Part shown: positions 2,226 through 63,814 of the stretch, one piece after another
Layout of the letters: every line of letters begins with the position of its first letter
Position numbering within the stretch: position 1 is the first letter of the stretch
Assembly: GCA_009746045.1 (NCBI GenBank)
Contig: RPFO01000065.1
Span: 8,784,042 to 8,848,041, forward strand
Source: Mesostigma viride
Lineage: Eukaryota; Streptophyta; Mesostigmatophyceae; Mesostigmatales; Mesostigmataceae
Direction of reading: 5' to 3'
Length of the DNA: 64,000 bases
Made by a program: the position numbers and the translations under genes
Notes under the pieces: generated by a model
Told to the model about the DNA's origin: nothing
The model's database searches: none
The model's input: only the letters and a program-made list of their open reading frames with translations

Positions 2226-5200
2226 CAGAGTGCAATCGTACGTTATACGCGTTATACGGTCACGGTGGAGTATAATGTATAATACGGTATAATACGGTAT
2301 AATACGGTATTATACGTTTTCGTACGGACACACTCAGAATACTCTGATTTTACACATTTTAACCCCTAAATGGTCTTGCTGCCGATTTTCCGCCAAAAAT
2401 CGAGTTCCAGCCGATGCATCGGCCCCTTCTCGGGGGACCAGATGCCGCGAAATCTATTGAGAATTAGGAAAAGTTTAGCTGAGAAGATCGAAAGTTTATA
2501 AAATTCTTCACAGCATGGTACTAGGGTTTGCATACTTTTGACAAAGTTATAGAGGTGTTCTGGCCGGTCAAAGTACAAGGGGTCAGGGTACTTTTTCACG
2601 TACAACGTGCATTCCGGAAAACGACGACCTGGCCATGGCGGCTTGCGCCCACGCATGGCATTTACGTTTGCGTTCGAATTTTCTGGCCAAACTTAGGATA
2701 TTGATTTTAAACGTCCTAAAGATCATACAGGCCAATTTTTGGTTCGCGGGAATGCCATTTGATAGGTGTCGGCAGCGTTCTTGCTGGAAAAAACTGCGAT
2801 CAGGCCGGACGATAGAAACGTTGACAGCAATACCTTTCCGGCGTATTTCAAAGTATATATTGGTTTCTTTGTACTTTTTATGATACATAGTAGTCGTAAA
2901 CGTGCAAGGGTGGCCAGAAATCGCCGAATCCAGCGACCATGCTGCACAACTTTGGTGTGCCGAAATGCGCCATTTTGCGGCCACCGCCTGGGCCAAGGTA
3001 ACGCCATCCATGCCTGGTAAAGCTTAAGCATCGTTTTCCTATCGATGTTTGACGTTTATATATACGTTCTAGCTTGTGTAGCACATTCTTTTTGCACTAT
3101 TCATGCTCTTTCTTGACCCTGGCCTGGCCCCTTTCTAAAACACCCTTCTTAGATGCTTCCCTCAGTCAGTTGACCTGCCACAGGGTGATGGTGATAAGTT
3201 TGAGAGGCTGTATGGGTTTGAATACCTCCATATATGTTTGTTATTCATTTCCCATACACATATTGCATGAGTGTGAGGCAGTTGGCTGGTCTCTGTGGCA
3301 TCATCAAGCACGTAACTGGTGAGTAAAAGCTTCCCATTGACAGCATGTGCCACCAGGTGTGCTGGCCATCACCTGGCAAGCTATAGCAGCTTAGGCCTAG
3401 TTTATCCTTGCTAGGGCAGGCTGAAATAGGCTCAACACCACTAGTTTGTTGGTGGCTGCCTCCTAGAATGCATGCCTTGCGTAGGGTGTCCGTACCACGT
3501 TACCTACGTGCATGGACACGGTGGCACCTGCACATAGGTGCCATGTAAGGGCAGTGTGATGATGCAGTTATGTTTCCCCATCATTGTGGAAGGGAAATGT
3601 ATTGTTTGGCATGGTTGGTGGCCATATTAGGAGGTAGTATGCCCACCCCTACTCCCTTGGTTGCTTTTTACCAACGGTACCCCTATGGGCTGTACTGGGT
3701 GTAACTGCTGGTATACCCACCCAAATGATGACCCCAATGGCTCAAACTGTTCAGCAACTAATTGTTTATCATCCCTGAAGTGGTAGGTGCCTAGGTCTTA
3801 TAACATAATTCAAAATGCACATTCTACCAAAAATGAAAACGCGCGTCTTGACCCCCCTGACTTTGACGGCATTTAAACATGGCCTACCCTGCATATATGT
3901 GAGGTTGTGATATACCAACCCGAAGGGCAACTCATGAACATGCTTGGCCCCCAAGGACAGCCATTGGATGTGGGTAGGTTGGATGGCATCTGGTTTGCAA
4001 AATTGTGAAGATCCAGCCGATTTATCGGCAGGATCTCAGACCATTTAGGGGTTAAGACACCCACCATCAATCCACATGTTTTTAACACTGTTTTGGACAT
4101 AATCCAAGGTTGCCCTACCCTCGGCTATACTCTATACGGTGGATATTGTGGACACGATCGATATATTGCATGTAATACTGAGAATGTAAACGTGCGCATG
4201 CATAATTGTGTGTACGTGTATAACTGTATATATGTGGCTTTATATTGGTTATGTTTACTTGGGTGCCTTCACTTTGATGCAAGTAATTATATATGGTAAA
4301 AAGGCCAGCAATAACTAGGGGACCGTGCAGTGGGCCAGCAAGGGGCCAACATGTTAAACATGGCTAAACAGGTGGGGATGTGATAATAAGTAACTCACAT
4401 ATTCTCACCTTCCATACAACAACCTTGTTTTCCAGCAGGCTGAAGAGCATGACAGGCGTCTATGAGCTCGCCAGCTCCTTGCAACGGTGATGCCGCTCCC
4501 AGGCAGCTAGGGTCCTTGACTACGCAATATAGAATGTCTACCGTGTGAAAACCTCCATACAGGAAGCGTAGCAAAGCCAGATAACTGCCCGATCAATTCT
4601 GGGTAGCTTTAGGAAGCATGGCATACGCAGCGTAAGGAAAACCATTGAAAGCTGCGGAAAATCTGATAGCACAACTGCAACAAGTGGAGAACAAAATAGC
4701 AAGAAAAGCCCAGAAACGGCGCAAAAAGTTTCATGCCAGGTTCATTAAGAGCGCAAACAGACTGGGCGGTGACATGCGGCAAATCAACGTACCACGGCCG
4801 GCATTATTTCCTACCCAGGCGCGCAAGAAAAGCCAGCCAGCCATGGATGGATTAACCGCGGATCGCGCAGGCCTGAACGAAATCATTTTAGAAATGACAG
4901 GAAATGGCTGCAGATCGAAGATGCTTAGGTTATTTTCATGGTGTCCGTTACTAAACGGCTCTTGCTGCATCAAAATAACCCACGAATATCGAGTTCTACC
5001 GTCGCAGGCACACATGCTAGATTATTCATCGCGGCCAAATTGTTGGATGAGACCCCCGTGCAAATCTGTAACAACAAAGGCAGCGAATTTGCAAATAGTG
5101 CAGATCTTGCTATGAAACATCATAATAGAACATCACTTTTAACCATCGGCTTAATTTTTTCGCCTGTCGCCCGCCGGATTAGCCATATTTTAACGGAACG

Positions 5201-5525: not shown

Positions 5526-6675
5526 TCCAGCGGCAGACGTACGCTTGACCTCCGCGAGGAGGCCGAGCTCGCCAAGCGCAGCCTCAACGCCATACTCAAG
5601 AACTTCGACATGGTGGAAGGTGAGAATTCCGAGAAGCTTGCACGTGCGTTTGAGAGCAAAATCCTTGCACGCATGGGCCTCCTTGGTGAGATTAAGCTGA
5701 CCGCCCACCGCCTCCCCCGCGCGCGGGGTAAGGCAGGGGCGCCTCCGCTTCTTCTCATCTTTGACAGCCCAGCGGACAAGATTTCGTTTCTCAGACGCCG
5801 CAAGCGGCTCGAGAACACCACGGCTTCACCGTGGACGACGACTTGACCCTGGCGCAGCAACAACGGCGACGGGAGCTATGGCCGACCTACCTCCAGCTCC
5901 GGCAGACCAAGGCGGGCCAGTGAGTACACCGGAAGGGGGCGACCATCTAATAATGTCGGCCACAAGCCCTGGCACGCGACCCCCTCGACCACCGCAGCCC
6001 CATGCAGCGACTCCAGAAGCCCCAGCCTAGGGGAATACAGCAGCAGTAGTCATGTAGAATAGTTAGACAGTGGCCTTGTACATGCCCGCCTACTACAGCC
6101 GCACTATACCAGTTGAGGCCTAGCCTTTTTAGTCATGTACTATGTGTGCCTATTATGATAAGCCACCCTCCAGATGATGCCTAGCTTTACTTAATTATGC
6201 AGTGCCCATGCAGGGGGACACTCCCTGCTGAGAAGCCATGCCCTAGCTCTTGTATAGCTTTGCTGATCTTCCCCACCTATGACAGGCTCCCCTTAGCTGG
6301 GTGTTGCCTGAAACTCTGGGTGGTGCAGGTGCCCTAGTGCATGCACCTAGAGCAAGTGTTGTTTACATTCCCACCCTTGCAGGAAGTAGCTTAGAATGTA
6401 TGATAGGCCATAATATGCCCCTTCTCTGGGCTATGTGCTACATATACTCCCAACGGAGTTATGTTACACAATTCAATTCAATTCAATTCAATGCGCATAG
6501 GCCGGCATGCCACAGATATCGTACTATGAATGCAAGACTACAACCGGTACCGGCCAGAAATTTGGAAAATCCAGACGTACCATGCATGGTACAGCTCACG
6601 ATCGAGCCTGCCATTATCTTATCCGCGTTTTCGAGTTCGCACTAGTACTATATGCTGATCTCATTAGGTGATTAG

Positions 6676-8364
6676 CCCCTAAATGGTCTTGCGGCCGATT
6701 TTCCGCCAAAAATCGAGTTCCAGCCGATGCATCGGCCCCTTCTCGGGCGACCAAATGCCGCGAAAACTATTGAGAATTAGGAAACGTTTAGCTGAGAAGA
6801 TCGAAAGTTTATAAAATACTCTAAAGCATGGTATATGGGTTTGTATACTTCTGACAAAGTTATAGAGGTGTTCTGGCCGGTCAAAGTACAAGGGGTCAGG
6901 GTACTTTTTCACGTACAACGTGCATTCCGGAAAACGACGACCTGGCCATGGCGGCTTGCGCCCACGCATGGCATTTACGTTTTCGTTCGAATTTTCTGAC
7001 CAAACTTAGGATATTGATTTTATACGTCCTAAAGATCATACAGGCCAATTTCTGGCTCGCGGGAATGCCATTTGATAGGTGTCGGCAGCGTTCTTGCTGG
7101 AAAAAACTGCGATCAGGCCGGACGATAGAAACGTTGACAGCAATACCTTTCCGGCGTATTTTAAAGGATATATCGGTTTCTTTGTACTTTTTATGATACA
7201 TATTAGTCGTTAACGTGCAAGGGTGGCCAGAAATCGCCGAATCCAGCGACCATGCTGCACAACTTTGGTGTGCCGAAATGCGCCATTTTGCGGCCACCGC
7301 CTGGGCCAAGGTAACGCCATCCATGCCTGGTAAAGCTTAAGCATCGTTTTCCTATCGATGTTTGACGTTTATATATACGTTCTAGCTTGTGTAGCACATT
7401 CTTTTTGCATTATTCATGCTCTTTCTTGACCCTGGCCTGGCCCCTTTCTAAAACACCCTTCTTAGATGCTTCCCTCAGTCAGTTGACCTGCCACAGGGTG
7501 ATGGTGATAAGTTTTAGAGGCTGTATGGGTTTGAATACCTCCATATATGTTTGTTATACATTTCCCATACACATATTGCATGAGTGTGAGGCAGTTGGCT
7601 GGTCTCTGTGGCATCATCAAGCACGTAACTGGTGAGTAAAAGCTTCCCATTGACAGCATGTGCCACCAGGTGTGCTGGCCATCACCTGGCAAGCTATAGC
7701 AGCTTAGGCCTAGTTTATCCTTGCTAGGGCAGGCTGAAATAGGCTCAACATCACTAGTTTGTTGGTGGCTGCCTCCTAGAATGCATGCCTTGCGTAGGGT
7801 ATCCGTACCACGTTACCTACGTGCATGGACAAGGTAGCACCTGCACATAGGTGCCATGTAAGGGCAGTGTGATGATGCAGTTATGTTTCCCCATCATTGT
7901 GGAAGGGAAATGTATTGTTTGGCATGGTTGGTGGCCATATTAGTAGGTAGTATGCCCACCCTTACCCCCTTGGTTGCTTTTTACCAACGGTACCCCTATG
8001 GGCTGTACTGGGTGTAACTGCTGGTATACCCACCCAAATGATGACCCCAATGGCTCAAACTGTTCAGCAACTAATTGTTTATCATCCCTGAAGTGGTAGG
8101 TGCCTAGGTCTTATAACATAATTCAAAAGGCACATTCTACCAAAAATGAAAACGCGCGTCTTGACCCCCCTGACTTTGACGGCAGTTATATATGGCCTAC
8201 CCTGCATATATGTGAGGTTGTGATATACCAACCCGAAGGGCAACTCATGGACATGCTTGGCCCCCAAGGACAGCCATTGGATATGGGTAGGTTGGATGGC
8301 ATCTGGTTTGCAAAATTGTGAAGATCCAGCCGATTTATCGGCAGGATCTCAGACCATTTAGGGG
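6676..8364. mobile_element. 1,689-bp TTAR-flanked DNA transposon, copy 2
   Basis: Same termini, same orientation and exactly the same length as copy 1, with only scattered substitutions visible. It is flanked by TTAG on both sides (6672-6675 and 8365-8368). It lies 183 bp beyond the tail of the ORF1-only retroelement. The high identity implies recent activity of the family and a transposase supplied from elsewhere. Confidence 0.8.
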
Positions 8365-8649
8365 TTAGACAAATACTTACACACACATACAAAAAAAAAA
8401 AACTGACAAATATCGTTCCTCGTCACATGCCCCAACCATACAACTAGTCGAAACACACGCCCTGCATGATCAATTAAGCAAGCTGTTTCCGGCCCGACTG
8501 TCTAGGTCATTATATAGTCGCTCTATACAGGTAAGCCATCCATAGTTTCAATGTACAAGGCGACACATTTCCATCTCCAATCATATTCATCATCCTGAAG
8601 ACCTGAACGACTCGAAAACGCGGAAAAGATAACGGCAGGCTCGGGCTAC

Positions 8650-9711
<1,062 letters not shown>

Positions 9712-11481: not shown

Positions 11482-14513
<3,032 letters not shown>

Positions 14514-18378: not shown

Positions 18379-21300
18379 CTATGTCCCCGCAACTCCCGCC
18401 TGGACCTGCGGCGGAGCATCCTGCTCCTTCCACGTCGCATCGGGCAGGGTGGGTATGGAAGCATCCGAGGCCCTCTGGTTCGTCTCCCTCTTCATCGCAC
18501 TACTCGGTCTTGCTTGTCCACTGACCGACCTCCCTTGTACACTGACGGGTCTTCCTTTTGCACCATGGCTGGCATCCCCCTTAGCCCCTGGCTCCGCCCC
18601 CGCTGGCGCCTGCACGTGCCAGTAGCCCTGCCCTGCCTCCGCACCGGCCGCAGACATGCCCGCGTGCAGGACCAGGTTCCTGGGGGAGCAACCGGGGCCC
18701 ACGCTCATGCGGTAATGCTGTACCGACGACTGCATCCGGTCCCTATGGGGCCTAGGGATACCAGGAGCCAGCGTGCCGCCGCCGCTGCCGCTGTCCACGT
18801 TAAAGTCATTCGAACGCTCCCACAGCCCATTGCCGCCAGGCCCCCGCAGCTGCCCACTCGGCCGTTGACCCGCCTCCATCCTGCTCGCGCGCTGCTGCAG
18901 CATCAGCGCCGTGTCCACGGACGCGCGCCGGTCCTGCGCCAGCTTGGCGTCCACGACCCCTGGCTGGGGGGAGACATACCCTGAGAAGCTCGACCCCCGC
19001 ATGCTGGGCGGGCCCAGGTGTTCGCGACCATCATCGTCATCCTCCTCGCTACTGTCATCGTTGGAGTGATCGCCGCCGGACCCTGAGGACGAACGGCTGC
19101 CCTGGCTGTGACGGGGGTCCTTGTCATCGCCCCCCTCGTCCCCTTCGCCCTCTGCGTTCTCGTTGGTGCAGGCCTCATCGTTGTCCTCTAATGCTAGCCC
19201 CCGCATGTAGCGCAGATCGGACAGCCGCGCGCGTGTCATCTGGCGCGCGGCACGCACGTGGTGGAGGTGCGCGTTGATCGCTTCCCGCTTCATGCGCGCA
19301 CGGATGAGGTAGCCGCGGAAGGCCGCCTGGGGTGAAAGGAAGGGGGGGGCGGGGGGCGGGGGGAGGGGCGGGGGCGGGAGCCGGGGGGCGGAGTACAGGT
19401 GCAGAATATTTGAGGAAATTAATTCATGATCATACTCATAATCATCCTCAGGGAACCGAGTGACCCAGCACCACTGTAGTATTCCCTCCTCGCGCCACAT
19501 GGCCGCTTCAAGAATCCGTCTCCCCTCCACCGCTTAAGCTCCACTACCCCTCTCACCCGCAGCACGTTGGCTGCCTCACTGCCTTACCTGCACCCTCCTC
19601 CCTCCTCTCCCCATCTGGTGCACAATGGCCCCCCTATTCCCCCCCCCCCCCCCCCCGGCAAGATCACTGCCACCCACCCCTTTCCTTGCTGAACGACCAT
19701 GGCCGTCTACTGCCCCCACCTGCACAGCACTGCCCCTCTATCCCCTTCACGCCCCCACCTGCACAATGATGTCGCGCTACTGCCACAACCCCACCTGCAC
19801 AATGATGTCGCGCTACTGCCACAACCCCACCTGCACAATGATGTCGCGCTACTGCCACCCACCCACCTGCAAGATGATGTCGCGCTACTGCCACAACCCC
19901 ACCTGCACAATGATGTCGCGCTACTGCCACACACCCACCTGCAAGATGATGCCGCGCTACTGCCACACCCCCACCTGCACGATGATGTCGCGCTACTGCC
20001 ACACCCCCACCTGCACGATGATGTCGCGCTACTGCCACACCCCCACCTGCACGTTGATGTCGCGCTACTGCCACCCCCCGACCTGCACGATGATGCCGCA
20101 CTACTGCCACACCCCCACCTACACGATGATGTCGCGCTACTGCCACCCCCCACCTGCACGATGATGTCAAGTTAAATTTCCCTCACCTGCACGATGATGT
20201 CAAGTTAAATTTCCCTCACCTGCACGATGATGTCGAGTTAAATTTCACTCACCTGCATACTAATATGAATACTAGTATGTTATATTATACTTACTAATTA
20301 TATTCACCAGCATACTATCGGGCCCACCCATCCCCTTTACGTCGTCACTTGGATGATGATGTCCATCTGCATACTTCACCTGCACAAGGATAGCAATCGA
20401 TTACCTTCACCTGCACAACGATGGCGGCCTATCGCCCTCGCGTGCACGATGATGGCCGCTATGCCCTTCCTTTAACGCCCTCACCTCCACAATGATTGTG
20501 AGCTACCGCTATCCCCTGTACACATGATGGCCGCCTACGCCCTGCCTAAACCTCACCTCCACAATGATTGTGAGCTACTGCTATCCCCTGTACACATGAT
20601 GGCCGCCTACGCCCTGCCTAAACCTCACCTCCACAATGATTGTGAGCTACTGCTATCCCCTGTACACATGATGGCCGCCTACGCCCTGCCTAAACCTCAC
20701 CTCCACAATGATTGTGAGCTACTGCTATCCCCTGTACACATGATGGCCGCCTACGCCCTGCCTAAACCTCACCTCCACAATGATTGTGAGCTACTGCTAT
20801 CCCCTGTACACATGATGGCCGCCTACGCCCCGCCTAAACCTCACCTGCACGATGATGGCAACCTACATCCGTTCCAGACCTCACCTGCACAATGATCGCG
20901 GCTTCGATCGGGTCCAGCTGCCGCAGCCGCTCCTTGCGCCTCCGCCTCGACTCGGCCCTCGCCCGCTCCTTTGCCCGCGCCTCTGCGTCCTCCCTCAGCT
21001 TGGCCACCCGCTTCTCCAGATCTGTGAGCTCGTCCTCGCCCCGCGCGTTCCGGCGCGACAGCCCGTTGGCACTCCGCTGCCGACCGTGAGGCCCCCCGCT
21101 CTTGAACCCCCGCCGGGCACTCCCCAAGGCCTCCTCGAGCTCATCCGCACGAAATGTGATCTCCCCGGTCGAGCCGCCCCCGTACTCGTCCCACGGGGGG
21201 CCCCCCTCGCCCGCATCGATCGCTGCCACATGGCTCTGGAGACTGGCCTGCAACACCTCGAGACTCGCGCGGCTGTTGAAGCTGGGGGCAGCCGACAGAA

Positions 21301-24300
21301 ATGCGGGGGAGCGCATGCCGCCACCGCCTGCAGCCACCGAGAGCGAAGACGGCGATGACGGCAGGAGCGCGGTTGTGTTGTTGTTACTGCCGGCCACAAC
21401 ACCGGCCACGGATGCTGGCCGCGTGGCGGCTAGCTGATCACTCGTGAGGCTGAAGCGGGCGCTGAGCAGGCGATTGCGTTTGTCCGGGCCGCCGGCCCGG
21501 GGTTGGCTGCCGCCGCCGCCCCTCTGCCCGTCGCCCCCTTTCCCAGCCCCCTTTCCACCCGCCTTGCTAGCCCCCTTGACGCTACTCGTCCGTTCGTGCT
21601 TATGCTGCGGACGTGGCCGCCCAACGTGGCGATCCACGCGCAGAGAGGCCAAGTCCCCCGCTGTGTCACTTCCCGAATCCGGCCCCATTCCCGCGACCTC
21701 CGACCCCGCGACACTTTCCACAGAGCACGCGACATCGCTCACGGCCGCGGTGGTCGCAAGCGAGGGCCGGACTTGCAGAGGGGGTTCCCACCGCCCCGTG
21801 TCCACGCGCGCATGCTTGCCCCGCAACGAGTGGCTCGTCCCGAGCGAGGGCTGAGATGGGCTGGAAGTCAGCCCGCCGTAGGCCCCCGCCCGGGCACCAT
21901 TACGGCCCATCGCCGTGAACGGGCGCGTGGAGTTTCGGTACCCTTCCGTCGCCGGGCGGACTAGCCCAGGGGAGACCCGCACCCAACCTGGGAGCGGGCC
22001 GAGGATGCTGGGGGAGGAGGGACACTTGTCGAGGACAGGGTTGCCGTGCTCGTCCCACAGCGTCTCGTCGGCGGGGCTCTGGATTGGGTCCTCGAGGCGC
22101 ACACGCATGGGCGACTTACGCGGCTTCTTGTGGACCATGGGCGCAGGGAGCACGCTCTGGTGGGGCGTCGCGGCCAGGTGCGTCCACTGGCCGCCCGCGA
22201 CCTGGCGGTTTGAATCGGGGGTGTCATACACATACACAGTGTTTACGTGACGTGAGAAGGTAAACAGCGAGATCGTATGTATCCATGTGAAAAGGGGCTT
22301 ACGCATGCGTACTACAGGCATTATGTTATAAGTATCATGTGGGAATGCGTACTATAGGCATCATGCAGCCATGTGTACTAAAGCATATCCATGGGCGCTA
22401 AAACTGCTGGGAGGGGAGGGGAGGGGAGGGGAGGGGAGGGGAGGGGAGGGGAGGGGAGGGGAGGGAGGGGAGGGAGGGGAGGGGAGGGAGGGGAGGGGAG
22501 GGGAGGGAGGGGAGGGAGGGGAGGGGAGGGGAGGGGAGGGGAGGGAGGGGAGGGGAGGGGAGGGGAGGGAGGGGAGGGGAGGGGAGGGAGGGGAGGGGAG
22601 GGGAGGGAGGGGAGGGGAGGGGAGGGGAGGGGAGGGGAGGGGAGGGGAGAGGGAGGGGAGGGGGGGGGAGGGGAGGGAGGGGAGGGGAGGGAGGGGAGGG
22701 GAGGGGAGGGGAGGGGAGGGGAGGGGAGGGGAGGGGAGGGAGGGGAGGGGAGGGGAGGGGAGGGAGGGAGGGGAGGGGAGGGGAGGGGAGGGGAGGGAGG
22801 GGAGGGGAGGGGAGGGAGGGGAGGGGAGGGGAGGGAGGGAGGGGAGGGAGGGGAGGGGAGGGAGGGGAGGGGAGGGAGGGGAGAGGGGAGGGAGGGGAGG
22901 GGAGGGGAGGGGAGGGAGGGAGGGGGGAGGGGGGGAGGGGAGGGGAGGGGAGGGAGGGGAGGGGAGGGAGGGGGGGGAGGGGAGGGGAGGGAGGGAGGGA
23001 GGGGAGGGAGGGAGGGGAGGGAGGGGGGAGGGGAGGGGAGGGGAGGGAGGGGAGGGGAGGGAGGGGAGGGAGGGGAGGGGAGGGGAGGGGAGGGGAGGGA
23101 GGGGAGGGAGGGGAGGGGAGGGAGGGGAGGGGAGGGAGGGAGGGGAGGGGGGGGGAGGGAGGGAGGGGAGGGGAGGGGAGGGGAGGGGAGGGGGGGAGGG
23201 GAGGGGAGGGAGGGGAGGGGAGGGGAGGGGAGGGGAGGGGAGGGGAGGGGAGGGGGGAGGGGAGGGAGGGGAGGGAGGGGAGGGGAGGGGAGGGGAGGGG
23301 AGGAGGGAGGGGAGGGGAGGGAGGGAGGGAGGGGAGGGAGGGGAGGGAGGGAGGGGAGGGGAGGGAGGGGAGGGGAGGGGAGGGGAGGGAGGGAGGGGAG
23401 GGGAGGGAGGGAGGGAGGGGAGGGAGGGGAGGGAGGGGAGGGGAGGGGAGGAGAGGGGAGGGAGGGGAGGGGAGGGGAGGGGAGGGGAGGGGAGGGAGGG
23501 GAGGGAGGGGAGGAGGGGAGGGGAGGGGAGGGGAGGGGAGGGGAGGGGAGGGGAGGGGAGGGGGGATCAATCAGTACTTACGACTGATTGATCATTACTC
23601 TAAGGATTCATTCCGCCCCATGGACCGCTGCAACCAATCGAAGGTAATGCAAATTAAAATAATCATATGTATGTCGGCTGACGCCAGTCGCCTAACCCAC
23701 TAGCAGCCTACTAGCAACCCGGCAACCATTGAGCAACCCCCTAACACTGGCCGCGCACCCTTGGCTAACATACTATACATCCGCGCCCACGCACCTGCAC
23801 GCGCTTCTCCACCTGTACGAGTGCGGTGCGGATGCGAGCATACTCCGGCAGCGTGACGAGCGACGGCAGCAACTCGAGCATGCGGCGCACGTACAGCCGG
23901 CACACCGCCAGGCCAGCGCTCACGCAGTGCCGCCGCTCCGTGAGCACGGCCACAGGGACGCGTACCCAGTCGGTCATGACGTTATCGACCGCGCAGAGGA
24001 GTCCCGGGAGCTCCAGCATGCCAGGGATATCTGGAGATAGACGCTTCCAGAGCTCGGTCAACAAGGTTACCAGGTTTTCGGTGATGTGCCGCTTGTAGGG
24101 GCCGCCGTTGCCCTGGCTCTTGAGCTGGAGGAGCGCAAAGGGGATGAGGTCGACGACCACGGAGGTCACAGCTGGGGTGTCCTCGTCCTCGCATTGGTAT
24201 TCCGGCAAGTCACCGCTCAGGACGGCGTTGACGACATCCACCACCGTGTCCCCTTTGCCCATGCGGCGCGAGCGCGTGAAGTCCACGTTCAGGATCGCCT

Positions 24301-24592
24301 TGGTGAGCTCCATGACGAGCCCGGCGCTGCCCCGTTCCAGTTGGATCTCGTTGACCAGGTTGTAGACGAACCGGTGGTTGAGCAGGTATTTCGTCAAGCC
24401 CGGCCGCCGCACCTCCACGTCCCAGTGCATCAGCGAGTCAGCGAATTTGGGCTGCTCCAGGAAAAACGTTGCGTTGCGGACGACGTACGCTAGCGCGGAA
24501 TCCAGGCAGAGCAAGGGACTGTTGACGTCGTCGCGAGGTAGGCGCGGCGGCTCGGCCTCGTTGGGTTTCCCAGCCAATTTGGGCATCGCCAT
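18379..24592 (-). CDS. Predicted IQ-motif protein, three exons, about 1,020 aa
   Basis: Predicted exons 24592-23795, 22201-20885 and 19326-18379, all joining in phase 0 with GT-AG introns. The exon 2/3 join is well supported because it rebuilds a canonical calmodulin-binding IQ motif, AAIIVQ plus [11 protein letters not shown]. The exon 1/2 join is inferred only from phase, strand and spacing; exon 1 could be a separate gene. Exon 1 is a helical, conserved-looking domain of 266 residues with no motif I recognise. Exon 2 is disordered and ends in a charged helix ([20 protein letters not shown]) before the IQ motif. Exon 3 is acidic and Ser/Gly-rich. Function unknown; calmodulin binding is inferred from the motif alone. 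The introns carry a 1.16-kb purine tract and two splice-site minisatellites. It faces RPA2 head to head. Confidence 0.6.
19717..20250. repeat. 36-bp minisatellite carrying a splice-donor copy (IQ gene intron 2)
   Basis: About eleven 36-bp units followed by shorter partial copies. On the minus (gene) strand each contains ATCATTGTGCAG-GTGGGG or a near variant. This matches the true end of exon 2 and its donor (ATCATTGTGCAG-GTGAGG, junction 20885/20884). Confidence 0.9.
20430..20876. repeat. 72-bp minisatellite carrying a splice-donor copy (IQ gene intron 2)
   Basis: 72-bp units starting at 20521, 20593, 20665, 20737 and 20809, plus flanking partial copies. On the gene strand each has ATCATTGTGGAG-GTGAGG, another version of the exon 2 end and donor. 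It lies directly beside the true junction, so it and the 36-bp array probably share that origin. Confidence 0.9.
22408..23565. repeat. GGGGA/GGGA purine-only tract, 1.16 kb
   Basis: Only G and A on the plus strand, a mosaic of 5-bp GGGGA and 4-bp GGGA units with occasional longer G runs. It lies in intron 1 of the predicted IQ gene, so the transcript would carry a long CCCCT/CCCT pyrimidine tract. The sequence can form triplex DNA and, on the plus strand, G-quadruplexes. The open frames in it (Gly/Glu/Arg-rich, Pro/Leu/Ser-rich) are artefacts. Confidence 0.95.
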
Positions 24593-25814
24593 AATCGATT
24601 AGTTGCAATTTCAACAGGCTAATGCAAAGAAAGTCTTACTGGTCTCAGCAGAAGATTTGTAAATTACATGGCTACGTAAATTAATTATAGATTCTGAGTA
24701 AACGGACACTCGCAGGCGATTCATGGCTCAGGGTTCGGCCAATTGCGCAAGCAGCTCGCGGCATACTTGCTGGCAGCGATTCTCCCCAGTTGGAAAACGA
24801 TGGATACGGACTCACAAGATATGTTGTGCCATCAAGTACCAAAAATAACGGCCGCATATGCCGACGTGTTCGATAATTAATTATGGAATAGCTCCATGTC
24901 GTCCCAAAGAACTGCCTACCCGAGACTATACATGGGTTTCTAATGGCCTGAACAGCTCTTCTCAATTTCTCCTTTCGAAACACGAAAAGAAAAGCAAGTC
25001 GAAATTGCGAAGTCCAAGTCAGCCCTGTAATACATTCTCAACGTGTGACTGCCTTCAACTAGTCCTCCATAACCCAAGCCGGTGCGACACCGGTATTGTA
25101 TTGGGTATTTCTAAAGCAGCGTCATATATAGAATGCGGATGCCAGTCGGCAGTCGCGGGTCGCCCCACTCGCCAGACGAATGGTCATTAGGACTGTCGAC
25201 GTATAGCAGTACGTACGCATACACCAATTGCGTATTACACACTGTACACTGCACAGACACCTACAGACACCACGTCTTGGACAGTGCATCCGCTGCGCGA
25301 GCCCCGCGGATGACCAGGAAACAGCTCGGTAGAGCCGCCAGGGACAAGTAGGTGCGGACGGCGACAAAACCCCCCACGCGAGCCGCGCCGCGCCGCGCCA
25401 CGCCTGCGGCAAGCTTGACAGAATGCCACTAGCTTCCCGCCATCAGCGTTCAAACGCGCGAGCGCACCCGTGTCAGATGCAAGCGGCACGAAACCTGAGC
25501 GGCCTTGGGTAATTCCCGCCAAGCCGAGTCTCAGACCATTTTCGACTAGAGACAAGGCGACAACAGCTGACTATATTTTCCGTTTTCCACCCATTTTCGT
25601 GTATATACTCACTTCCCGCTCGGCCTTGCCAAGCTGCAACGAGCAAGTCGTTTGCTTTTGCCAAAATTGTTGGGTTCTGAGAGGACCTATCTGCAATTGC
25701 TTGCCCATCTGTCAAGATTGGCAACTGGTACTCCAGCTTCGCTGCTTGAGGCGCATCGTGTTACGAGGTGGTCTGAGCAGTTGAAGTGAGTAGTCTGAAG
25801 GGAATTGTTTTGCC
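24593..25814. other. Intergenic region between two divergent genes
   Basis: Lies between the ATG of the predicted IQ gene (minus) and that of RPA2 (plus), so it should hold both promoters. No repeat array or element was recognised and I could not assign a TATA box. Confidence 0.5.
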
Positions 25815-36039
<10,225 letters not shown>

Positions 36040-36883
36040 CGATGCCCCCCCCCCCCCCCCCCCCAAAAAAAAAAAAAAAAAGGGATAGTGAAAACACATG
36101 GATGTGCATGTACGTCGGGTAGTGACGCCACGAATACATATGGACAACGGCTTTACACCGTGGCTTATAACCACGTCCGTTTTGCACACCCTGGATTTAG
36201 GATGTGCATGTGCAACGGATCGCAAGGTCAAGGCGCCCGCACGAATGCCTCGGTGTGTACACACACTGTAATGAGACCTATGCGCGCATGCACATATCAG
36301 CAGTAAGAGAATGGGCCCAAGGTTCTCCAGCGACTGCCCAGCGTCGAACCGCCTTGCACGTGCAGGGGTGCAATACGAGCATGCCGTGCGACATAAACTG
36401 GATAATCCGAAATGGCTGTAGAGCTAAGAGGGCAGGGAGAGTGCCTGCATGCCTCGGCAGCTAGCCAAGTCACGCGTCGACCCATATCTTTTATTCGTAT
36501 ATGTTATACTGCATTCGTACGGCGGCAGTAGCGAAATACTAAGTCGCACGGTGCAGTACCGGCGCGGCGTCCAATTCGAGACTTGGGACAATTTGCCCAA
36601 GTCCCAAACACTAGGGAAATGGGACTGCCACGCTACTGTACGGACCAAATTACTTGTCCCGACTTGTCAAACAAATTATATGGGCGTGTCAGGCTCATTG
36701 AGTAGATTAATGATGAATGTTTACATGTCGAAAACTTTGCATTAATTAATTAATTGATTCCATCATCAATATTGTTACGATAAGTTTGCCAAGTCCCTAA
36801 AATGGCCCTGCCACGCTAGTGCACAGACCAAACTACTTGGACATCCAATTGTCAAATAAATTATATGGGCATGTCAGGCTCAT
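36040..36883. other. Region downstream of RPA2
   Basis: Starts with a C run followed directly by an A run (about 36046-36081). A direct repeat around ATGTCAGGCTCATTGAGTA (about 36687 and 37349) was later used as the target of the SINE-like insertion. No gene was recognised. Confidence 0.5.
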
Positions 36884-37348
36884 TCTGATCAGACACTCCG
36901 CAAAGGTGAAAACCTTTGCGTTCAGTGCCGGGCCGCGGAAAACGCGGAAAACGCGATCTGCAAATGAATCCGACCGGAATCGAACTGGGGACCTCTCGCA
37001 CCAATTTTGCTGACTATAGGACGGACGTCTCCGGTTACCATGGCATCGCCAACTTACACCTACAGTCATCCGCAAAAGTTCTCCTGTCCGGGGAGTGATG
37101 CAAGCCTTTCGGATTTGGTACTAGATAAATCACTCGAGATCTGTGTGTAGGAGTACTACACACGTGTCTGCACGCGAGACTTGTTCAGTCTCGCACCGTG
37201 AGACGGGCTGAACACGGCTGAATCCTTCTTTAGAAGGGGGCGTAGCCGGTACTATCGAAATCAGCCAAGCGTATATTCTGATCAGACACTCCGCAAAGGT
37301 GAAAACCTTTGCGTTCAGTGCCGGGCCGCGGAAAACGCGGAGAACGCG
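36884..37348 (-). mobile_element. SINE-like element, full copy plus partial second unit
   Basis: The insertion is flanked by the 10-bp duplication TCAGGCTCAT (36874-36883 and 37349-37358). The 252-bp unit (36884-37135) matches the copy at 59904-60155. On the minus strand it contains a pol III B-box-like AGTTCGATTCC, with TGGTAACCGG upstream in the place of an A box. It ends with the hairpin GCAAAGGT-TTTC-ACCTTTGC and the end sequence GGAGTGTCTGATCAGA. A second, truncated unit (about 37276-37348) with the same hairpin is joined on the far side. A tRNA-derived SINE fits best; fold and promoter are untested. Confidence 0.65.
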
Positions 37349-37555
37349 TCAGGCTCATTGAGTATATTAATTATGACTGTTTACATGCCAATTAAAAACT
37401 ATGCATGCATGAACTGATTCCGTCATAAACATGACATAAAATGTATACGGTAAGTTTGATATCCAGGAAATGGTATCTGTCCGAGGCAATGCTTTAATTA
37501 TCTACAAAAGGTAAAGGGCTATATATCCAAGGCCTAGCATCATAATCAAGTGTCT

Positions 37556-38953
37556 AGAACACATAGACAACCTTGTCCTCATCAATCTTCTCCTTCTTCA
37601 CGTACACGGGCCCCCTGGCAGGTCAGTGGGCTGGGGGAGGTGGCAGCACGTTTGTGGCCAGGGGTCCGGCCCCCTCAGGTACTCCTGCTTGGGGACATCG
37701 TCGTCACCCTCCTATTTCTTGGCCTAGCTTGGGAGCCATCTTGGACTTGGTGTGTTTGAGACACCTGGATGGCCCCCCCTCCACCTTCTTGGGCTCCTCC
37801 TTGGACTACTCCTCGTTCTCAGCCTTGATCTCCTCCCTGACGTTCTTCCAGAATGTGTCTGCATCCCATGACTCAGTGGGCTCCTGCTCGATGGGCTCCT
37901 CCTTTGGCTCCTCCCCCTTGGCCTCCCCAGGCCTTCTTGGGCTTGGCCTTTCCCTTGACCTCCTTGGCCTCCTTCTTGGCCTTCTTCATGGCCTCCCTCT
38001 CGGCCTAGCTCCTCCTTCTCAACCTTCTGCCAGTACTGTTCTAAAGGGGTTGGTGTCTTGAAGTTTCTTATCAAAGCCCTTAGCCTGCCTCGCCCAGCTC
38101 CTGACCAGCTGGTCATTAGCTAAGTAAGCTGGTCATTAGCTAAGTCCAAGAAGCTAGCTTCTTGGACTTATCCTCCTCCTCCCCATCAGATTCCTCCACC
38201 CCCTCATATTCCTCCTCCTCCTTGACCTCCTCCCCCTCAGACTCCCTCCCCCTGCCGGGCCCCCTAGCTCCCCCTCCCCCGAGGTCCTCCTCAAGCTCCA
38301 GCTGGCGGACGATGAAGGGGTAATTAACCCTTGGGGTTGAAGATGGTGTCCTCGTTGTCCTCAGCCCTGAGAGCCTCCTTGCGCTGGCGGTACTCGTCCT
38401 GGAGAGCCGCCTTCAACTTCTTCGCCCTTGATCTCATTCTGCCTCAACTCCAACTGGAGGGGGGTGTCGTAGAGAACGTCGGCCTCGCAGGGGTCCTCAG
38501 GCCTGGGGGTGTTGGGGAAGGCGAAGGTGAAGTCCATGCACTTGACGCAGTGGTTCCTCTCCTAGTTGGCGTCTGGGATAATCTCCCACGGATGAGCCTC
38601 CTCATTGCACGTAGGGTAGCGGCAGGATTGTCCGTTATACCAGATGGGAGTGATCTCTCCCTTCTGCAAGGTGATGGGCAACACAAAAACAAAACAATGG
38701 GGGTCCATGATGTTAGAATCCAAAAGAGGAGCACGATGGTAAACTGAGAAATGCAAAAAAAACAAGTGGAAAGCAAGTTTACCTCGATCTTGTGCTCGAA
38801 CCGGATGCAATTGTCGACGTTTTCTCCGAAAACTTCGTCCAGCATGCGCAGTGGGAGCACCATATTGCACTGGTGGCAAATACTAATCCTTTCCGCGCGA
38901 GCGCTTTTCTTTGCCGTGAGCCTCTTATCAGACACTACATCCAACTTGAACTG
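37556..38953 (-). pseudogene. Zinc-finger-like protein pseudogene, not recognised
   Basis: Exon 38953-38783 encodes SICHQCNMVLPLRMLDEVFG. It is joined in phase 0 across a 119-bp GT-AG intron to an exon at 38663 giving KGEITPIWYNGQSCRYPTCN. A stop (TAG, 38562-38564) interrupts before RNHCVKCMDF. Downstream, coding-like text continues in shifting frames: an acidic run (KEEEEYEGVEESDGEEEDK), a Lys/Glu run (EAMKKAKKEAKEVKGKAK) and a clean end VYVKKEKIDEDKVVYVF plus stop near 37556. The spaced Cys pairs suggest zinc binding. The intron shows it is not a processed copy. Its 5' side abuts a retroelement at 38954, which probably truncated it. I do not recognise the family. Confidence 0.55.
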
Positions 38954-39060
38954 GTTAATAGTTTACACCCTCCTACCCTTGCAGGAAGTAGCCCAGAGTG
39001 TATTATAGGCCATATATTCTTCTCAGGGACATGTGAGCAGAACAAGAATTAATTAATTAA
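38954..39060 (+). repeat. Retroelement 3' end, plus orientation
   Basis: Carries CCCTTGCAGGAAGTAG, a TATAGGCCATAT box and a TTAA-repeat tail shared with the next feature. It is 5'-truncated to about 100 bp. Confidence 0.6.
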
Positions 39061-39240
39061 TTAATTAATTAATTAATTAAAATCATAGCTCCGTGGGGAG
39101 CTTATGTTACACATAGCCCTGAGAAAGGGGCATCTATATGGGTTTGTAATACAATCAGGGCGACAACCTGCAGGTGTAGGATGTCCAACAATCACCTGCT
39201 CTGGGTGCACAAGGTGCACCTGCACCGCCATGATGGTTTG
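39061..39240 (-). repeat. Retroelement 3' end, minus orientation
   Basis: Contains the same 3' UTR words as 546-1045, and the hairpin AGCTCC-GTGG-GGAGCT (39087-39102) next to the TTAA tract. It lies tail to tail with the preceding copy. Confidence 0.6.
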
Positions 39241-39496
39241 AACATGCCTCCTAAACAAGCACAAGCACACAAGGCGGCTTGAGGAGAGGGCCTAGAAGGC
39301 CTGCATGGCGGAACAAGAAGAGGTGGCAGAAGATTGTCCATGCAGGCCCACACGCCAGCCCCTGTGGGCAAGCCACCTCCCCCCAAGAGGGAGGGGCGTT
39401 TTGCTGAGTAGTGTAGTTAGGATCTTTCTAGACTAGATAGCTTAGAGTTAGGTTAGTTCGTTTACGCGGCTTCGCCCACCTCCACCCATCCAGTAA

Positions 39497-39545
39497 GGAA
39501 TATGTGCTACATGATCTCCCAACTGAGGCATGTTATAATATGTAA
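39497..39545 (+). repeat. Retroelement 3' tail, plus orientation
   Basis: ATATGTGCTACATGATCTCC, an imperfect hairpin and ATGTTATAAT, running into an A/T-rich tract shared with the minus-strand copy that follows. Confidence 0.55.
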
Positions 39546-40100
39546 ATTAGATTAAATTAAATTATAACATGCCTCCGTGGGGAGGTCATGTAGCACATAT
39601 TTCATGATGGATGGGGTGGAGGAAGCCGCGTGATCGAACTATCCTAACTCTATCTAGAAAATCCTAACTACACTACTCATGAATCAAAACGCCTCCTCCA
39701 CTTGGGGGGAGGTGGCTTGCCCACAGGGTCGGGCGTGTGCGCCTTGACAATCTTCTTCCACCGCGTCTTGTCCTGCATGGCAGTCCAAAGACGGGAGAGA
39801 GAGTGGATGCGGTGCTCAAACTGGGCTGGGACCACTAGGTCGTCCAGCAACATCTGAACGTAGTTGGTGACAGGTTTCCCTACCCTTTTGGGAATGTCCT
39901 TGGGGCCAGGCCAGGTCAGAATGTGCCGCCCTGGCTGTCCAAGCCGCTGGGGGCCGGCCAGACCAAGGGTGGTGTCGACCTGGCTGGTGCGGGCAAGGTG
40001 TCCTACAAATGCTATCCTACGCTGCCTAATCTCGTCCGAAACAGGAGGCATGCCATGATACAGAGACTCTGATGACGGACGCTCGGAAAAACCTACATTA
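39546..40100 (-). pseudogene. LINE ORF2 C-terminal fragment with 3' tail
   Basis: On the minus strand it encodes FSERPSSESLYHGM, SDEIRQRRIAFVGHLARTSQ, HILTWPGPKDIPKRVGKP, then RIHSLSRLWTAMQDKTRWKK and a stop. This is the C-terminal tail following LINE reverse transcriptases (RRL.-GH--R). Its 3' UTR ends in hairpin CCTCC-GTGG-GGAGG (39572-39585) and an AATTT tail. It is nearly identical to the plus-strand copy at 58.5 kb but truncated at a similar point. A short plus-strand tail fragment (about 40110-40140) borders its 5' end. Confidence 0.8.
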
Positions 40101-40145
40101 AGGATTATAATATGTAGGCATGTTATAATTTAATTTAACATGCAT

Positions 40146-41041
40146 GCCATGTTGCATGCAGCTAGAATCGGTGTATATATGAGTCGAGGGTAAACCATCT
40201 AGTCGTCCTGCTATAGCTCGATCTGTGCATCATGTAAGTCATATTTATAATATGGCTGGCCAGTGTGCATACTATGGTGGCATAATGGTGGCACTGGCCA
40301 GCTGGCACGCAGCGCTGACTAGTAGGAGACAAATATTCAAACATTACATCAAGTACATATAATAGAGGAGGGACAGCAATGCCATCTGGCTCACTGTGAT
40401 AGTTCAACTCAACGCAGTGATAATTTAACTCACCATACAAACACAATTCCTTCAATTGGCAGAGTCGATCTGACAAGTATCAAGCAGATCATAAGTGTAT
40501 ACATGCTCAGTGATTAATTCGGTCACCAGTACCACCCTGAGGGATGTGCAGCTTGATCTAGCTTGCTGGCCGGATGGCCTACTCCCTAGCCACTGCAAGT
40601 GTGCAAACCAGTCACTAACAACCATTACATGCCCTTGTCTGTTTCCCCGGGTGGCTTGTCTGGGAATGCCAGATGAGGCAATAGCCTCGTGTACTCTAAT
40701 CCAAGGTCTAGCTGGCGGTTACTGAGAAGAAAAGCAGGCGGCGACGAGCATCACGCCCTCCCTGGGAGCCCTAGTCGCAGCAGCGAGAGAATCAACAATC
40801 TCAGGAGCATGCAGCGGGAATAAAAGACAGGAGTTGCAGGAGAAGAAAACCGGGACAATCTTCCCAGGGCACCCTGACAAGCCCGAGCCACACATATGTG
40901 GGGCGGTGCAGACCCGCGACTTGCCCATCATTTACTGTGCAGATATTAAGAAGCCCTACCTGCATATCCATGACACAGCAGCTAGTAGAGGCCTGTAAGT
41001 TGCAGGAACTTCTCACAAGAGTCCGAGCCTACTCCCTCCTC
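40146..41041. other. Unassigned region downstream of DHFR-TS
   Basis: No exon, array or element end could be supported. It should contain the 3' UTR of DHFR-TS. Confidence 0.4.
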
Positions 41042-55385
<14,344 letters not shown>

Positions 55386-59903: not shown

Positions 59904-60155
59904 TCTGATCAGACACTCCGCAAAGGTGAAAACCTTTGCGTTCAGTGCCAGGCCGCGGAAAACGCGGAAAACGCGATCTGCAAATGAATCCGACCGGAAT
60001 CGAACTGGGGACCTCTCGCACCAATTTTGCTGACTATAGGACGGACGTCTCCGGTTACCATGGCATCGCCAACTTACACCTACAGTCATCCGCAAAAGTT
60101 CTCCTGTCCGGGGAGTGATGCAAGCCTTTCGGATTTGGTACTAGATAAATCACTC
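59904..60155 (-). mobile_element. SINE-like element, single full copy
   Basis: 252 bp, nearly identical to 36884-37135. It is flanked by GTCTGT on both sides (59898-59903 and 60156-60161). The minus strand carries the B-box-like AGTTCGATTCC and ends in the hairpin closed by GCAAAGGT and ACCTTTGC. A second arm pair, CCGCG-GAAAA-CGCGG on the plus strand, lies beside it. Confidence 0.7.
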
Positions 60156-61395: not shown

Positions 61396-63814
61396 TTACG
61401 CCGTGTCCACACGCTGCCTCTTGCGTGAGTCCTGCGACCCTGGCGGATCCGCCACCATCACTTTGAGCCGAGACCCAAACAGCTCAGCGCCGTTGAAGTT
61501 GATCACCGCGAGCTGCGCGCTCTGCGAGTTGTTGTACTGCGAAGCGCAACACAGGATGCGCCGGACACAGGGAGCATCGGTATGTAGGTTTACATGAATG
61601 ACCAAATGTTTGGTTATCAGAAAATGTACGTTTACATGAATGACCACAGGTTTGGTTATGTAAAAATGTATTTTTTCATGAATGACCAGAGGTTTGGTTA
61701 TCGAACGAACCGGGGGCAAAGAAATAGTTCACAATGGGCGTGAACCATGCCCGCACTTGAAAGCCCAAGTTATGGCTGTTCTGGAGGGCAGACAGCCCAT
61801 TCCTCACATTCACCTACATCAACGCTCTTGAGACGCCGCCCCTACCCTCACGATCCTTAAGTCAAGCATGTTCCCTCTCATTCCTTATCCCTCATATAGC
61901 CCTTACCTGAATTGACAAAGCAATCCATCCTTCTCTGCATGCCCCGTTCCATCCCTATCCAAACCACCCACCCAAGATACCTCCCTATCCAAACCACCCA
62001 CCCTAGATACATCCCTATCCAAACCACCCACCCTAGATACATCCCTATCCAAACCACCCAACCTAGATACATCCCTATCCAAACCACCCACCCTAGATAC
62101 ATCCCTATCCAAACCACCCACCCTATAGACCACCGCCATTCCACTCTCTCTGCCAAAACTATACATTTCTTTTTCCCATGTCCCCTCCATATTGCCACTC
62201 TTCCTCCCAGGCACCTCATGTCAACACAACCGTGGCCCCCACTCATGTACGGAGACTGCTGCCACTACCCTCCCCACCTCATCTTCCCTCCAGCCTCCCA
62301 GCATCGCTGGCTGTCCCCTCCATCCCCCCCGCCCCGGTCTCCTAAACTTGACCTATTCCCCCCCCGCCCTTCTCCTCACCTTGACCTATCCCCCCCCCCC
62401 CCCTTCTCCTCACCTTGACATAGCCGTAGTTCTTCCCTGGCTGCAAGCGTGCGTACTCCAGCCCAGGGCAGCGCGCAAATATCTCCTGGAGCAGGCCATC
62501 GGAGATGGGTTTTGACGCCACCACGAAAAGGCGCGAGTCGGGCGCGTCGTCTGCACGGTGGTCGCGCCCGCGGTCCTTCTGCTGCTCCCCGCACCGCCAC
62601 GCAGGGGCAGATGGGCAGACACACATACACACACAACGAACAAAACACAGACAGACACACACACACACACACATGAGCAGACGCAAGCGCCCACAGCCAT
62701 GGCTAAGGCCACGCGCATACCAAGCCCAGTACCATGCCCAGCAACATCACCCGGCAAGTGGGGAACACCTGGAACGAGGTTACTATGCCGTGTGTATGCG
62801 TGATGGAATGACATCAGGTATATCAGCCAGGGGGTCTCAAGGTATCGGGGTGCCCGAGAACAGCGGTTTTTAGTGCCTGCAACAAGGGGACGCTACTTAG
62901 CGAGCTGAGCTCGTTGGCTACAAGGGCCATGGGGAATGAAAGGCAACAACGAGGGCCACGGGGAATGGAAGGCAACAAGAATGGAAGCCATACCAGGATA
63001 CCCTCAAGGCAATGCCCCTAATCTCTGAGCCCCTCAGCGAGATGGCGCCGGCGGCATCCAAATGGCCAGAGAAGAGGGTGAACACACATGTTACAAAACT
63101 ACCCGCATGGTGCAAACAAAAGATGTCTACGGTGGCAGCGTAAGCGACGGATAGCTTGAGCAGAAAGTGATGGACTCCATTAGCACCACAACAAGATTTA
63201 GGGAGGCAGAGATGGTCAGCAACATAACAGCCGCATGAGAAACCGGCTTGTTACAAGCTAGGGCTAGACATCAGTCAACGTCTGAGACACAGAAGCGAAC
63301 ACTGCCAGTGGGGGGCAGACAAACGCACACAGAAGTGATTTGCTCCACAGTGTCCATACAGTGTCCACAGTGTCCACAGTGTCCGCATAGTGTCCATACT
63401 GCACAATGTTCCTTAGTTTCCCGCATAGTGTCCATTGTGCGCGCATCGTCGTCAATGGCCAGATCGTGCCCGCATCGTGTCCAGATAGTGCCCATGGTCC
63501 ATAGTGTCCACAAAGTGCCCACAAAGTGTCCACCTAGTGTCCAACTGTCCATAGCGTCCACATGGTTGTCGCGCAGTCTCCTTGGTGTCTGCAAAATGTT
63601 TATAATTTCCACATCATGCCCCTAGTGATGTCATGTCCTTTGCTTACAGACAATGCCATGCTTCACTCACCCCTGCCATGTCTAGTCCGGCCGAGCCAGG
63701 GAGTCCCCCCAAGCCGCCCAGTGCCCCAAGGCCACCAAGCCCTCCCAGACCACCCAGGCCACCCACGGGGCCGGCGCCTGGTAACGAGAGCATGTGTGCG
63801 AAATTGTCCCGCAT
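61396..63814 (-). CDS. RBM45-like RNA-binding protein, 3' part of gene
   Basis: Predicted exons 63814-63671, about 62584-62414 and 61536-61396 (GT-AG, phase 0). The first is a Gly/Leu-rich linker (MRDNFAHMLSLPGAG, then GGL repeats). The second opens a C-terminal RRM with RNP2 (RLFVVAS), KPISDGLLQEIFARCPGLEY and RNP1 (GKNYGYVK). The RNP1 is completed by the last exon (YNNSQSAQLAVINFNGAELF, GSRLKVMVADPP) and a basic end SRKRQRVDTA-stop. Layout and ending resemble the last RRM of animal RBM45, where LKVMLADSP and KRQR also close the protein. Other multi-RRM proteins remain possible. Upstream exons with further RRMs should lie to the right of the window. The acceptor of the middle exon may be 3 bp further on. 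Confidence 0.7.
61945..62130. repeat. 30-bp tandem repeat, six copies
   Basis: Units of ATCCCTATCCAAACCACCCA followed by CCCTAGATAC, in the last intron of the RBM45-like gene. Confidence 0.92.
63345..63560. repeat. Degenerate 9-bp GTGTCCACA / GTGTCCATA repeat
   Basis: About twenty diverged units in an intron of the RBM45-like gene. Confidence 0.85.

Follow-up and report, generated by a model that had tools for sequence, protein, structure and literature searches.

Why should the tandem repeats inside an intron be built from the very junction at which that intron begins? The question is raised by a stretch of 64,000 nucleotides of the Mesostigma viride genome (C1468:8784042-8848041; 440-Mb genome in 2,243 contigs), hereafter the window, in which several genes carry arrays with an exon border inside the repeat unit. 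Both here and in genes elsewhere in that genome, introns often contain one or many copies of their own start joined to the last bases of the preceding exon, and far more rarely copies of their end. These arrays are mirage-type minisatellites, and tandem duplication filtered by splicing is the best account of them and, in our judgement, a fairly probable one.

Junction-derived arrays in the window

Exon borders in the window were placed by protein homology together with GT-AG ends, which gave 24 introns (eight in RPA2, twelve in DHFR-TS, two in the IQ gene, one in the RRM gene and one in a further gene); the first intron of the IQ gene was placed without a homology check. The spliced products or their pieces match the Pfam families RPA_C, DHFR_1, Thymidylat_synt, IQ and RRM_1 above cut-off, with the IQ match spanning the IQ-gene junction and the RRM_1 match spanning that of the RRM gene. 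Over almost its whole length DHFR-TS can be aligned with the solved chain 8dae_A, which we take to be the Arabidopsis enzyme, and no gap falls at the exon 7/8 or exon 1/2 borders. Compared with a solved RPA32 chain, about 15 residues are missing from RPA2 near its exon 3/4 border, which is less certain for that reason. The best of four candidates for an extra small exon that would fill this gap lies inside the RPA2 array itself (27581-27625; summed score 14.5, the donor contributing most), and it was not adopted.

An earlier note on this DNA had described donor arrays in RPA2, DHFR-TS and the IQ gene and an acceptor array at exon 2 of DHFR-TS, and all of these are recovered by TRF. The array in intron 2 of the IQ gene (19717..20885, minus strand; TRF and homology) runs from the true donor, at exon end 20885, across most of the 1,558-nt intron. 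TRF divides it into blocks of a 36-bp unit (19748-20168, 11.7 copies), a 33-bp variant (20147-20257, 3.4 copies) and a 72-bp double unit (20479-20856, 5.2 copies), which by eye form a single chain of 36-bp-like units. Beyond the authentic donor, which scores 11.0, this intron holds 23 donor-like sites scoring at least 8; once the site at +1207, which is not a copy, is set aside, 15 of the 22 copy-like sites outscore the authentic one. Most of intron 1 of the same gene is occupied by a (GGGAG)n array of 1.15 kb (22409-23563).

At the exon 7 donor of DHFR-TS (exon end 49290), a 51-bp unit recurs 16.3 times with 100% matches (48473-49304, minus strand; TRF). The unit joins the last 15 exon bases, GACACGAGCGCAAAG, to the donor GTGGGT and 30 intron bases, so composed that it stays open in frame over 17 aa, yet a reading of the array as protein-coding was rejected, the alignment to 8dae_A leaving no room for it. 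A 228-base piece of the array had no genome match beyond its own place in a search that skipped very common words. The RPA2 exon 3 donor array (27461-27659, plus strand; TRF and homology) consists of 3.0 copies of a 67-bp unit, with the true donor after position 27491. At exon 2 of DHFR-TS (exon start 54513), 2.3 copies of a 76-bp unit cover the acceptor (54508-54679, minus strand; TRF and homology); the true acceptor is the copy adjoining the exon, and two copies lie upstream. The exon-derived part of the unit, which the earlier note had put at 12-30 bp, comes to 31 nt in RPA2 and to 15 nt both at DHFR-TS exon 7 and in the IQ gene, while at the DHFR-TS acceptor it is only about 6-8 nt and the stated range does not apply.

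Two further cases had been missed. The RRM gene carries a donor array of 2.9 copies of a 34-bp unit (62322-62419, minus strand; TRF; exon end 62414, GGCTATGTCAAG|GTGAGG), in which six exon bases are repeated exactly and twelve with mismatches. Intron 4 of RPA2 holds a single imperfect repeat of the exon 4 tail, 412 nt downstream of the donor (30500..30517, plus strand), matching at 17/18 nt and followed by GT.

The window also holds repeats of other kinds. Near-perfect (CAT)n arrays extend over 11482-14513 (about 1,010 copies) and 8650-9711 (about 354 copies), and a 1.7-kb stretch present twice (2359-4059 and 6672-8371, 97.6% identity) is probably a single mobile or duplicated element in two copies. 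Within the 3,820-nt intron 11 of DHFR-TS, at 42640-44350, inspection by eye showed a LINE-like fragment of a reverse transcriptase. A 31-mer occurs in two exact copies (37020-37050 and 60040-60070) close to a tRNA-like box, GAATCGAAC; no tRNA was called at this repeated element, which is possibly a SINE.

A survey of donors and acceptors

Beyond the window, we sampled 22 genes with matches to the Cpn60/TCP1 or kinesin families, picked mostly for having several exon hits and before their DNA was seen; HSP70 genes, which have few introns, were excluded. Their junctions were placed from profile anchors, reading frame, stops and weight matrices, and with the window included the survey covers 95 donors and 97 acceptors. 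A junction was counted as copied when its 16-mer (8 exon and 8 intron bases) recurred in the intron at a distance of 15-250 bp with at least 14/16 bases matching, including at least 7/8 of the exonic ones. By this rule an intronic copy was found at 22/95 donors (4/24 in the window and 18/71 outside) and at 1/97 acceptors, namely that of DHFR-TS exon 2 (Fisher p 6.8e-7). The difference holds outside the window alone (18/71 donors against 0/73 acceptors, p 8.5e-7), the window by itself being too small a sample (4/24 against 1/24, p 0.35). Border-multiplying arrays recur elsewhere in the genome, with donor copies in 11 of the 22 outside genes. They include a CCT3 array of 48 bp x10, an array of 76 bp x3.9 in the Hsp60-like gene of L039 and kinesin copies at spacings of 70, 88 and 97 bp; six of the 22 donor matches span no more than 20 bp ungapped.

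The polarity persists when the rule is changed. With 15/16 bases required, copies remain at 12/95 donors and 1/97 acceptors (p 0.0012); with a 26-base window, at 11/95 and 2/97 (p 0.0096); and with a laxer rule that considers the exon alone (15/18 exon bases, up to 800 bp away), at 15/95 and 3/97 (p 0.0027). Acceptor-side duplications therefore exist and are several times rarer than donor-side ones, so that acceptors do not in general mirror the donors. A first pass over 60 introns with a 24-base window gave the same picture, although one of its 14 donor matches (L038, spacing 74) lacked a shared run of exon bases. Looking to the exon side, the L041 donor has an additional 16-mer match 237 bp upstream, and a downstream match was found for 0/97 acceptors.

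Chance likeness to the donor consensus was ruled out as the source of these matches: when donor 16-mers were compared with the introns of other genes, 1/1,073 sampled pairings matched, which corresponds to 0.09 expected in 95. The view that chance placement is unlikely is thus upheld by recurrence in the donor's own intron.

A misplaced acceptor would score as copy-free and favour the asymmetry, and some outside acceptors are probably misplaced. Among the 41 outside intron pairs, five that depart from the profile by at least three residues were retained as doubtful. A restricted count was made for this reason, limited to intron pairs that agree with the profile within two residues and have fair splice scores, and it gave 8/31 donors against 0/31 acceptors outside (p 0.0047) and 12/55 against 1/55 with the window added (p 0.0019). 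Ten donors, 13 acceptors and three intron pairs were left out as uncallable, among them the donors of two kinesins (kC and kF) that appear arrayed. One CCT3 donor, at profile position 435, had to be set manually, the automatic pair call having landed inside the array; without it the donor count is 21/94.

These figures bear on the most improbable of the explanations that we considered, that the pattern is an artefact of assembly errors or wrong exon borders. It could draw on the complete identity of the DHFR-TS copies, on the placement of borders by homology and on the poor fit of some outside junctions to the profile. Against it, copies have diverged in many arrays, the DHFR-TS borders match a solved homologue, solved CCT chains can be aligned to the exon anchors of five CCT genes (gaps falling at unanchored exons), and the pattern is present in half of the other genes and holds in the best-supported junctions.

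The surveyed contigs yielded several observations apart from the counts. A CCT8-like gene, by our own reading, carries a donor array of 40 bp x2 (L036 2693-2770; exon ..GTIKHVSKAK) of which about 31 bases are exon-derived; its exon is unanchored and the array stands outside the counts. We read the gene of L040 as a plastid-type Cpn60, which together with the fused DHFR-TS of the window suggests a plastid-bearing lineage. G000:C2011 holds a full-length Cpn60 frame that lacks introns, along with two Hsp70 frames, also full-length, and is perhaps a bacterial contig within the assembly. One CCT gene is present in two copies, on G000:C1641 and C887, with equal exon scores and an inter-exon distance that differs by about 3.2 kb; these are either uncollapsed haplotypes or recent paralogues with large variation in intron length.

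Origin and persistence of the copies

The earlier note had suggested for these arrays an extreme form of intron gain by duplication of AGGT-containing segments (the Rogers model), in which duplicated exonic segments create the introns themselves. The units do hold an exon tail followed by GT, often as AG|GT, and in one of 65 introns (kinesin L060, 851 nt) the exon tail and the intron tail are alike at 10/12 bases. If introns had arisen in this way, however, an intron should end in much the same sequence as the exon upstream of it, and over the 65 introns the mean identity is 4.35/12, compared with 4.39/12 between unrelated introns. The introns that hold the arrays moreover begin with an ordinary GT and finish with an ordinary AG, which argues that existing introns have been lengthened. 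We regard intron gain as a highly improbable origin, and this part of the earlier interpretation is not sustained.

Whether donors are special as sites of duplication can be judged against the interiors of the same introns (median length 749 nt), 33 of 65 of which contain an interior tandem 16-mer at 15/16. Measured by coverage, exact copies (16/16) occur at 5/95 donors, at 5.1% (2.7-8.1) of interior positions and at 0/97 acceptors. At 15/16 the values are 12/95, 6.6% and 1/97, at 14/16 they are 23/95, 8.0% and 2/97, and at 13/16 they are 28/95, 9.9% and 3/97, with acceptors below the intron interior at every level. Older copies are about three times commoner at donors than in intron interiors, and exact copies are no commoner by coverage. 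A donor excess that grows with copy age is expected if copies at donors can be recognised for longer, the authentic exon and donor being held from drifting, and the excess among older copies is partly due to this constraint. When arrays are counted as single events, donors exceed expectation at 16/16 (5 observed, 2.0 expected, p 0.056), at 15/16 (12 against 2.5, p 1.5e-5) and at 14/16 (23 against 3.1, p 3.5e-13); doubling the expectation, as for a longer detection horizon, gives p 0.39, 0.006 and 1.6e-7, respectively. Equal birth rates may therefore not explain everything, and a true donor hot spot is possible.

Such a hot spot, caused for example by a transcription-linked RNA:DNA hybrid or by the G-rich GTGGGTG motif, would make introns grow from their 5' ends. 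Besides the excess of events at 15/16, it would account for a local peak of copies (18/94 windows centred on the donor, about 9/90 further in and 6/85 at +12) and for the short reach into the exon: across the 22 donor cases the exon-derived part does not exceed 38 nt in units of up to 190 bp, which looks shorter than uniform placement predicts. That exon windows at -70 to -30 of donors have an intronic copy in 0/469 we count in favour of duplication filtered by splicing. On the other hand, exact copies show no excess by coverage and only p 0.056 by events, and a departure in the same direction is predicted if a copy lasts longer when its partner is constrained. We hold a donor hot spot, the chief rival account, to be unlikely as the main cause. 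Its fuller form, in which a hot spot tied to transcription or splicing is combined with a strict first-donor rule, so that unused donor arrays of equal or greater strength accumulate and introns grow from their 5' ends, we likewise consider unlikely; were it true, the genome would be a natural record of 5'-to-3' splice-site choice.

Under duplication filtered by splicing, the donor/acceptor polarity probably reflects which duplicated splice sites cells tolerate. Tandem duplications with spacings of about 25-190 bp would arise throughout the introns of a repeat-rich genome, and one that starts within the last 40 nt or so of an exon would carry the exon tail, the 5' splice site and the head of the intron. 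If the 5'-most donor stays in use, the extra copies would be intronic and silent, and donor duplications could for that reason persist, sometimes growing into arrays and lengthening the intron. Duplications that span an acceptor would mostly be lost, because splicing to the acceptor further upstream would leave extra sequence in the mRNA. Donor copies may also remain recognisable for longer, with selection holding the authentic exon tail and donor while the copy alone drifts. Selection, rather than mutation, would then lie behind the asymmetry. A semi-prospective check speaks for this account. A genome-wide search for CAGGTGAGT occurring twice within 26-54 bp returned 45 matches in 15 places, and 15 matches in 7 places for the reversed motif; the search is only suggestive because the frequency of the motif was not normalised. 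Six of the 15 places, chosen for their array-like look, were inspected. At four (L063-L066) the first copy begins, as judged by eye, precisely where an open, protein-like frame stops; the exons at two of them resemble LRR (E 2.5e-5) and WW (E 7.5e-6) domains, both below the Pfam curated cut-off, and the remaining two had no Pfam match. At a fifth, L062, a likely exon precedes the first copy, with three exonic bases. At L061 the array starts within the intron.

This account depends on which copy the cell uses. On the protein alignments, the donor in use is predicted to be the 5'-most one and, at exon 2 of DHFR-TS, the acceptor in use the 3'-most one. Use of the first copy instead would cause a frame shift or a stop in 19 of the 22 donor cases, so copies cannot generally add to the protein. 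Nor can strength exclude them, because in 16 of the 22 the authentic donor is equalled or outscored by one copy or more; it is probably position, judging from these scores, that keeps the copies out. The earlier claim that many equivalent donors are exposed to the spliceosome stands as a description of the sequence, DHFR-TS intron 7 having 16 sites of equal donor score with the authentic one included; the choice among copies is read here from protein homology.

The copies might alternatively serve a function, as decoys for U1 or enhancers, or as AG|GT sites of a recursive or dual-specific kind through which the intron is removed stepwise. The GT is kept in 43 of 45 exon-tail copies, at 15 junctions, although 24 of the 45 stem from two arrays (DHFR-TS and CCT3) and the retention for that reason says little. 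Dual-specific AGGT sites are contained in the repeats of human UBC, as one report describes (PMC10809524). A further hint comes from the array of L062 (G000:C1424:2265200-2265660, six consecutive motif copies), in which the 37-bp unit, TTTTGTGTTTTGTCCCGCAG|GTGAGT, fuses a pyrimidine-rich acceptor to a donor (CAG|GTGAGT), a composition that makes a recursive-splicing array possible at this place. For the arrays at large, the units are private to their own junctions, as the cross-gene control indicates, and 73/95 donors have no copy by the 16-mer rule, which argues against a general function; we think such a role improbable.

Splice choice among identical sites has usually been studied one construct at a time, and here evolution seems to have performed the experiment many times over within a single genome: duplicated donors persist and duplicated acceptors are mostly lost, even where the extra donors equal the real one in strength. 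The arrays offer a simple route to intron lengthening. They also call for caution in predicting genes: two of them at least keep an open frame over their whole length (DHFR-TS, 17 aa x16; CCT3, 16 aa x about 10) and could pass as annotated protein repeats. If the exon tail serves as a fixed reference, the ages of duplications could be estimated.

Relation to known systems

The closest parallel is with the mirages of amphioxus, likewise minisatellite-like tandem duplications across exon-intron boundaries that multiply splice signals. Two reports (PMC3087553, PMC3902484) describe them in Adh3, the globins BflGb6 and BflGb9, troponin C and PGBD5, with units of 10-160 bp and with splicing undisturbed. 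In M. viride, the feature that defines a mirage, a unit that includes the exon-intron boundary, is present at the 22 donors and the single acceptor counted above. Those reports concern single genes and include 3' boundaries (BflGb6), whereas in the present sample roughly one donor in four is affected and hardly any acceptor, in what appears to be a plastid-bearing lineage.

Other systems share some of these features. In ATP2A1 and the potato RdRp gene, according to one report (PMC4974935), a tandem duplication likewise includes splice signals and in potato crosses an intron-exon border, but a new intron arises there, whereas existing introns are lengthened here and the identity of exon tail and intron tail carries no general signal. 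A related human study of introns within tandem repeats (PMC10809524) describes repeated AG|GT units in UBC and VCX3A whose copies are coding and function at once as 5' and 3' sites; the copies described here lie in introns, and the use of most of them would disrupt the reading frame. Introner elements, as presented in one account (PMC7789003), resemble these arrays in their repeated intron sequence and in direct repeats at exon-intron borders, but they form dispersed families. The M. viride units are tandem and private to each junction, and the cross-gene pairings gave no sign of one element dispersed over many introns.

A literature search, with most subscription journals outside its scope, retrieved no recognised report of such arrays in algae and no genome-wide comparison of donors with acceptors. 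Set beside the systems above, what is new here is the occurrence in a lineage far from animals, the frequency, at about a quarter of sampled donors, and the strong polarity between the two ends of the intron.
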